Source: Bradyrhizobium sp. CCBAU 53421 (GTDB lineage Bacteria; Pseudomonadota; Alphaproteobacteria; Rhizobiales; Xanthobacteraceae). Taken from it: a DNA stretch of 64,000 nucleotides. This document shows, one piece after another, positions 47,721-47,836 of this stretch; the first letter of the stretch is position 1; every line of letters starts with the position of its first letter. The notes under the pieces were generated by a model. The model searched no databases. It worked only from the letters and a program-made list of their open reading frames with translations, and was not told where the DNA came from. The position numbers were made by a program, and so were the translations under genes. The stretch covers positions 3,410,001-3,474,000 of the forward strand of contig NZ_CP030047.1 of assembly GCF_015291625.1 (NCBI RefSeq). Reading direction: 5' to 3'.

Positions 47721-47726
47721 GTGCGT

Positions 47727-47740
47727 CTGCCTTCGGGCAG
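47727..47740 (+). promoter_or_regulatory. UUCG-tetraloop hairpin in operon leader
   Basis: CTGCC-TTCG-GGCAG would fold into a 5-bp stem closed by a C(UUCG)G tetraloop, one of the most stable small RNA hairpins. It has no T-run after it, so it is not a classical terminator. It lies between the NusG-like gene and the ops-like element. Confidence 0.5.
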
Positions 47741-47788
47741 TCGTGGTGGACATGTTTGGCTTGGGTGTGATGCTCGATTCACCCCGAG

Positions 47789-47801
47789 TGCGGTAGCTTG
47801 C
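47789..47801 (+). promoter_or_regulatory. ops-like element (TGCGGTAGCTTGC)
   Basis: The sequence matches the ops core recognised by RfaH (GGCGGTAGCNT) at nearly every position, with T for the first G. It lies in the untranslated leader 36 bp before the start of the wbpB-like gene and directly after a NusG paralogue gene. No second noncoding copy was noticed in the locus. Function is inferred from the RfaH paradigm. Confidence 0.5.
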
Positions 47802-47836
47802 CTGAAGTAAGCGGAAAACGTTTGAGAGAGGGGCCC

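Follow-up and report, generated by a model that had tools for sequence, protein, structure and literature searches.

In Escherichia coli, the NusG paralogue RfaH is recruited at the ops element; recruitment depends on positions 3–8, with direct readout of G5 and T6, and RNA polymerase pauses at C9 and U11 (PMC5995543). E. coli RfaH is the only member of its kind for which the recruitment mode is known in detail; for NusG paralogues whose genes lie within the operons that they act on, the means of locating those operons has been stated to be unknown (PMC7593976). The JUMPstart element, for which a stem-loop is mentioned, has been listed for gamma-Proteobacteria (Weinberg et al. 2010, PMC2864571). 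RfaH has been reported in Alphaproteobacteria, to which 18% of rfaH genes belong, and the cluster of RfaH genes termed CL4 has an HTH neighbour (Wang et al. 2020, PMC7593976). A 2026 preprint proposed that non-autoinhibited RfaH proteins act in cis without ops (PMC13015549), and the part of it available to us contains no mention of Alphaproteobacteria or rhizobia. Among the literature matches listed, in which subscription journals are thinly covered and an earlier mention is possible, there was no report of ops or JUMPstart in Alphaproteobacteria.

The stretch of DNA analysed here (64 kb; hereafter, the window) carries an RfaH-like gene with its start codon at 47205 and its stop codon at 47718–47720, followed by a leader of 116 nt and a long run of genes on the same strand (Table 1). 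The preliminary description of this DNA had placed a NusG-like gene upstream of the leader; the end of the open reading frame (ORF) at 47720 was confirmed, and a match of 80.1 bits to the Pfam NusG family (PF02357), together with a structure model, revealed the two-domain NGN and KOW architecture of NusG. Downstream of the leader, 23 same-strand ORFs (13 in the window and another 10 past its end, with ORF ends set mechanically) extend to ~77.7 kb in window coordinates, with a gap of ~0.5 kb at 63504–64021. Judged by family searches, these ORFs are mostly of polysaccharide type: the families comprise Gfo/Idh/MocA, hexapeptide acetyltransferase, epimerases, two asparagine synthases, an ABC-2 exporter with a Wzt_C domain, methyltransferases, glycosyltransferases, DegT aminotransferase, UDP-GlcNAc 2-epimerase and UDP-sugar dehydrogenase, and one ORF had no match in the Pfam and NCBIfam searches. 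The ops core is thus positioned in the untranslated leader of a long surface-polysaccharide operon, the ORFs of which would form a single transcript. It had been proposed that transcription runs through the downstream genes to at least 64 kb; the same-strand genes do reach that far and beyond, and run-through of transcription across them is predicted. A scan of 46400–48000 for promoters of the sigma-70-like type returned none. An intrinsic terminator in the leader was considered and rejected, as no terminator-like site lies there; the sole such site in 46400–48000 (1 found against 1.2 expected) falls inside rfaH.

Table 1. Features of the rfaH-like locus, in window coordinates
Feature	Position	Strand	Basis or remark
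Winged-helix gene (HTH_24 / MarR_EPS-like)	46552..47205	+	Overlaps and directly precedes the rfaH-like gene
RfaH-like NusG paralogue, NGN and KOW	47205..47720	+	PF02357, TIGR01955, PDB matches, AlphaFold model
UUCG hairpin	47727..47740	+	Outside the conserved element
Conserved hairpin, 10 bp, one bulged U	47760..47788	+	3′ arm ends at the ops core
ops element TGCGGTAGCTTG	47789..47800	+	Agrees with GGCGGTAGCNTG at 10 of 11 specified positions; position 1 is T, not G
Gfo/Idh/MocA oxidoreductase, first gene after the leader (WbpB-like in the preliminary description)	47837..48775	+	Family search
12 further polysaccharide-cluster ORFs inside the window	48772..63504	+	ORF list and family searches

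The core was reported in the preliminary description as the 13-mer TGCGGTAGCTTGC, which is indeed present at 47789–47801 and starts 69 nt past the RfaH-like gene. The core string by itself says little, because it occurs in the window at chance frequency: the 8-base core GGTAGCNT was found twice against 2.1 expected, and the 13-mer with up to two mismatches twice against 1.94 expected, one copy being exact. The string GTGCGGTAGCNT has four exact occurrences in both strands of the 9.26-Mb genome, and therefore ~2e-5 would be expected in one strand of the 116-nt leader, which makes chance unlikely; two of the other three occurrences sit opposite long open frames. It is the placement in the leader, not the string, that carries weight, and the comparative evidence is far stronger. 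As in the E. coli system, bases 2–9, 11 and 12 of GGCGGTAGCNTG are present, the site lies in the untranslated leader of a long polysaccharide operon and the genome encodes an RfaH-like NusG paralogue. Unlike in E. coli, the paralogue is encoded directly upstream in most of 80 loci compared, and the lineage is alphaproteobacterial.

Alignment of leaders between strains, as suggested in the preliminary description, showed that the core has been retained downstream of rfaH-like genes within the genus, across the order and the class, and in a single family outside the class, with 14 of the 80 loci lacking it; this class-wide conservation supports the idea that the same DNA core is used far outside the Enterobacteria. 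Leaders of orthologues with 96, 81, 79 and 58% protein identity (genomes G004, G034, G014 and G027, respectively) keep TTCACCC(C/G)GAGTGCGGTAGC(T/A)TG, and close variants are kept in G046, from another family (37%), and in G033 (41%). The variants in G039 and G037 read GGCGGCAGC and CCTGCGGTAGCTC, and loci L007 and L009 have no core near the rfaH-like gene. Within the order, 32 of 397 genomes, from 17 of 141 genera, had the strict pattern CACCCNNNNTGCGGTAGCNT, with 33 sites in all; the reversed pattern, used as a control, had zero matches in the same genomes. An RfaH paralogue scoring at least 105 bits was present in 79 of the 397 genomes (matches were listed to ~72 bits, and proteins of 77–92 bits, such as those of G385, G207 and G346, were not counted). 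Motif and paralogue occurred together in 31 genomes, the motif alone in 1, the paralogue alone in 48 and neither in 317 (Fisher p = 1.8e-23, which overstates independence because the genomes are related). The single exception, G395, has the strict motif (site L063) but lacks both an RfaH paralogue and a convincing hairpin (z = +0.2); this site was counted as a miss in the 397-genome comparison, kept in the hairpin-stability set and excluded from the alignments.

To extend the search, we used a covariance model (R1) of 33 sites with the 10-bp hairpin, from which L059, L070, L010 and the duplicates L006 and L068 were excluded; R1 favours strict-pattern bases because most of its sites were picked with the strict pattern. 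In its own 9.26-Mb genome R1 found one element, at window positions 47755–47804 (49.7 bits), the next place scoring 18.3. Among the 48 RfaH-bearing genomes of the order without the strict motif, 30 had an R1 match at E ≤ 0.01 (that of G039 being a training site), so that strict motif and R1 together place the element in 61 of the 79 RfaH-bearing genomes; the other 18, some of them incomplete, had no R1 match at this threshold in a search with stricter filters. Across the class, R1 matched 58 of 385 genomes and 48 of 276 genera, the own genome included (E ≤ 0.001). Across the phylum it matched 15 of 398 genomes, including four of one family outside the class, all four of which encode an RfaH paralogue; in two of them its gene immediately precedes the element. 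The phylum matches in G1120 and G1122 (24.4 bits) are probably false, because G1120 is without an RfaH paralogue. None of 18 housekeeping nusG loci carried the element (best R1 score, 11.2 bits). A chance origin is rejected on the basis of the position, the reversed-pattern control and the housekeeping-nusG control: the combination of ops and hairpin is a real element, class-wide though not universal. The members of the outside-class family (f231; L173, L174, L178 and L179) are small genomes of 1.5–1.9 Mb with both element and RfaH paralogue.

Loci were also fetched by protein, the set being the best 80 of 277, from Bradyrhizobium, Afipia, Pseudolabrys, Hyphomicrobiales, Rhodospirillales and others; among these, the closest relative of the NusG-like protein is that of Bradyrhizobium embrapense (99% identical), which marks the genome of the window as one of Bradyrhizobium type. 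R1 found the element on the strand of the gene in 66 of the 80 (E ≤ 0.01), of which L190 and L191, at the least, share their contigs with R1 training sites. In 62 of the 66 the element begins 14–60 nt after the stop codon, and in the others at 133, 239, 2869 and 5837 nt. The 14 loci without a match at E ≤ 0.01 include L207 and L212, where, by eye, the next gene resembles the first gene of the window and the element is absent. In L207 (Bradyrhizobium sp. AUGA SZCCT0158), inspection of the sequence ~60 nt after the rfaH stop revealed TGCGGCTTGC in place of TGCGGTAGCTTGC; the CACCC arm is missing too, and the element may have been lost naturally here. L218, also negative with R1, carries GCCCCGG/CCGGGGC, a hairpin with an unrelated sequence, just ahead of TGCGGTAGCAATG. 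In the remaining twelve R1-negative loci, GCGGTAGC is absent from the 3 kb downstream, of which L231 and L251 offer only 437 and 577 nt. Of 30 further protein-found loci (L072–L101), 19 carry the element, 7 of these being training sites.

The element also occurs away from rfaH. Among 30 strict-motif loci, an rfaH-like ORF lies upstream on the same strand in 18, is divergent in 1 (L052) and is absent from the flank in 11; an RfaH paralogue is still present in the genomes of the 10 strict-motif sites that have no rfaH within 1.5 kb (L063 aside). We took 31 sites at which rfaH was absent from the flank or which belonged to the outside-class family, leaving out L130, L139 and L167, where the core was not located where expected; 30 gave a downstream ORF and L174 none. 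The first long ORF after 25 of the 30 is of polysaccharide-cluster type (nucleotide-sugar, sugar-transferase, aminotransferase, asparagine synthase, export or similar families). For the first ORF at L049, L155 and L162 no family was assigned at E ≤ 1e-6, that at L156 is an ABC transporter of exporter type, and that at L173, where rfaH proved to lie beside the element after all, is a radical-SAM protein. Because sites away from rfaH precede polysaccharide-type genes, the element probably serves in trans as well.

In the 62 elements aligned from rfaH-like loci fetched by protein (rows of the 100-source alignment described below), ops positions 2, 3, 5, 7, 8 and 9 are invariant, positions 4 and 6 are each kept in 61, position 11 is T in 58, position 12 is G in 55, position 1 is T in 57 and position 10 is variable; positions 2–9 are nearly invariant in the 87 and the 62 model-found sequences alike. 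Conservation thus falls on the functional positions of E. coli ops. If U11 is the 3′ end, the conserved bases comprise the consensus pause bases, G at −10, a pyrimidine at −1 and G at +1, as would also be expected of a plain pause site that slows the polymerase for NusA, NusG or ribosome coupling, has no dedicated reader and persists by cassette inheritance. We give that explanation hardly any credence: in E. coli, mutants show that pausing alone can dispense with positions 3–8 (PMC5995543), yet these are the most conserved here (the model favours them), and the sites also precede polysaccharide genes away from rfaH.

Adjacent to the core is a hairpin that the preliminary description overlooked. 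The description had drawn attention to the UUCG hairpin CTGCC-TTCG-GGCAG, which exists where it was placed but is not the conserved one: only its stem recurs, in G004, G034 and G014 with the loops TCCG, GCTC and GCCC, and it is absent in G027. The minimum-energy fold of the leader contains not this structure but the hairpin at 47760–47788, in which C47760–A47770 pairs with T47779–G47788 through ten pairs with one bulged U. Together, this hairpin and the abutting ops core form a composite element at 47760–47800, with TGCGGTAGCTTGC as its 3′ half. The whole 116-nt leader is not unusually stable (folding z = −1.58). For the hairpin region of 35 sites, the mean z was −2.17 against shuffling of the upstream half (individual values −7.6 to +0.3), and the own arms fitted better than swapped ones (Wilcoxon p = 3.7e-5, relatedness uncorrected).

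Judged from alignments, the stem arms covary. Two alignments, of 87 sites and of 100 partly overlapping sites, were given 86 and 100 sources, respectively, and near-duplicates and weak matches were removed by hand. Double-changed cells numbered 64 against 32.1 ± 4.3 when shuffled (87 sites) and 71 against 36.1 ± 4.5 (100 sites), and 77.3% and 78.7% of cells were paired against 34–49% and 33–48% when slid, figures that are favoured because the alignments were fitted to the covariance model and include training sites. Pairs changed on both sides were not significantly enriched, at 6 against 4.2 for 87 sites (reached by 24 of 500 shuffles) and 6 against 4.8 for 100 sites (112 of 500). The pair adjoining the outermost one is poor (57 of 99 unpaired in the 100-site alignment), probably in part because bulged variants were forced into one register. 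In comparing an RNA hairpin with a DNA palindrome, we counted 60 G·U against 54 A·C mismatches in the stem, and sense minus antisense folding was −1.05 against −0.83 kcal/mol with shuffling of the 143 segments; neither comparison tells the two forms apart. A hairpin-stabilized pause needs a hairpin-to-pause spacing of about 11–12 nt. As the E. coli ops-paused complex has been described as distinct from hairpin-stabilized complexes (PMC11001881), we infer, rather than read from that system, that the hairpin would aid the ops pause.

The arrangement has the gammaproteobacterial layout of JUMPstart (RF01707), with a stem-loop immediately 5′ of ops; the hairpin base lies 11 nt from U11, against 12 nt in the Rfam model when aligned to E. 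coli rfb. Unlike in JUMPstart, the stem and loop sequences are different. Rfam JUMPstart, which gave 60 bits with E. coli rfb as a positive control, had no match in the window leader (E ≤ 10) or in 28 relatives (8 + 20; E ≤ 1), and R1 scored the E. coli rfb JUMPstart at the right place with a non-significant 10.6 bits (E 0.43). Other known RNA families were rejected: the weak Rfam matches were to snoRNA or microRNA families below gathering scores, with none in the 20 relatives. The covarying, RNA-like hairpin would also fit a cis-acting RNA antiterminator of the EAR or put type, in which hairpin and GCGGUAGC act in the transcript and the RfaH paralogue is a mere neighbour; EAR/epsC is an EPS-associated RNA with antitermination activity (PMC2864571). 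We consider this unlikely in view of the genome-level association with an RfaH paralogue, which extends to the 10 strict-motif sites without a nearby rfaH (L063 aside), and of a core identical at positions 2–9 to E. coli ops, which works through RfaH (PMC5995543).

The hairpin is also an inverted repeat in DNA, GGGTGA-loop-TCACCC, and could be an operator bound by the adjacent winged-helix regulator, the ops-like core being incidental. The product of the winged-helix gene matched PF13412 with 31.8 bits in the Pfam search and TIGR04176 with 61.7 bits, under the cut-off of 88, in the NCBIfam search; its gene may correspond to the HTH neighbour of cluster CL4 (PMC7593976), and relatives are present at 76 of the 80 rfaH-like loci (best 80 of 277). 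Relatives were found, however, in only 14 of 51 genomes searched (32 with the strict motif, G395 included, and 19 of the 30 with a model match only), conservation is higher in the core than in the outer part of the adjoining repeat, the outer stem pairs vary with pairing largely retained, and L218 has a stem of unrelated sequence at the same place. An operator is therefore disfavoured and, in our estimate, very unlikely. To the C-terminal part of the winged-helix protein no Pfam family was assigned. Taking these comparisons together, we regard 47760–47800 as very probably a site of the ops/JUMPstart type at which the product of the rfaH-like gene immediately upstream is loaded.

The best NCBIfam model for the window protein is RfaH (TIGR01955, 125.6 bits, below the equivalog cut-off of 144.5), and its best PDB relatives are E. 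coli RfaH structures. Of the residues that contact ops in E. coli RfaH, R23 is kept and K10, H20 and R73 are replaced by Q, N and L; in addition, E48 is R and F130 is V, with I93 and R138 kept. In a set of 154 unique relatives taken from the fetched loci, K10 is found in 7, H20 in 62, R23 in 118, R73 in 16, E48 in 4 and F130 in 68, and T66 of E. coli RfaH is W in all 154. In the 115 unique proteins linked to an element, K10 is kept in 2, H20 in 43, R23 in 89 and R73 in 9, and all four in none. W70 and H43-A44-R45 are invariant in 55 aligned alphaproteobacterial proteins. The preliminary description had the paralogue reading the ops-like site; conservation of the core behind rfaH-like genes agrees with this, but the residues by which E. 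coli RfaH reads ops are mostly lost, so site reading of the E. coli type cannot be assumed, and the protein would read the site by a partly different surface. By eye, the paralogues at L010 and L007 (G037 and G044) keep all four contact residues; the element of G037 is divergent (CACCCGTCCTGCGGTAGCTC), and G044 has none in the stretch examined.

In the AlphaFold model of the window protein (55 sequences, mean pLDDT 78.6), the C-terminal domain is predicted to be all beta (pLDDT 63–76). The best full-length match is fully recruited RfaH (8phk; 167 columns, TM 0.54) with an rmsd of 9.4, because of which the domain arrangement counts as unmatched; autoinhibited RfaH matches over ~95 columns. The marks of autoinhibition, an alpha C-terminal domain, E48 and F130, are thus absent from the window protein as modelled and aligned. 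The F130V change by itself frees E. coli RfaH from its need for ops (PMC6391919), so an ops element kept behind a protein of this type is unexpected. As with other cis-encoded NusG paralogues (TaA, UpxY and monomorphic RfaH), the gene adjoins or sits inside a long operon, and a constitutive beta C-terminal domain is likewise predicted for monomorphic RfaH (PMC13015549); unlike in those systems, an ops element follows the gene here.

If the element is such a loading site, RNA polymerase would transcribe the winged-helix gene and then rfaH before arriving at the ops core, where the nascent hairpin would be just out of the exit channel, its base 11 nt from the U11 pause position. The non-template strand would expose GCGGTAGC, to which the RfaH paralogue would bind, displacing NusG and staying on the polymerase, and Rho-dependent termination would be suppressed across the ~23 downstream ORFs. 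Some relatives would use the same element in trans before polysaccharide operons away from rfaH.

On comparative grounds, the element most likely serves to load an RfaH-like antiterminator encoded in cis. Its kind is known; its lineage, reader protein and arrangement are new. A conserved ops core with a hairpin behind such genes provides a concrete, mutable candidate recruitment site. It calls into question whether conservation of K10, H20, R23 and R73 can be taken as the sign of a single reading mechanism common to all RfaH proteins (PMC5995543), and also the proposal that ops recognition and autoinhibition were late acquisitions (PMC7593976). More tentatively, and with rather less than even confidence, we suggest that hairpin and ops form an old composite loading signal common to several proteobacterial classes, which might be older than both fold-switching autoinhibition and the reading surface formed by K10 and R73; RfaH paralogues that are encoded in cis and not autoinhibited might then read the core, or the hairpin at the exit channel, by other residues, for example W70 and H43-A44-R45. 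In practical terms, the covariance model marks polysaccharide operons across Alphaproteobacteria; with the Rfam models, the element went unfound in the window leader and in the 28 relatives compared.

Several smaller observations concern the surroundings. Judged by eye from translations of the stretches 40559–45135 and 62044–63501, there are glycosyltransferase-like ORFs similar to each other, and an asparagine-synthase-like ORF, upstream of the locus as well, two of these ORFs being on the opposite strand; of the two stretches, the family search covered 62044–63501. Finally, two elements are found on one strand near one rfaH-like gene both in L205 (4291–4339 and 4530–4579) and in G265 (C47:93575 and 95333).
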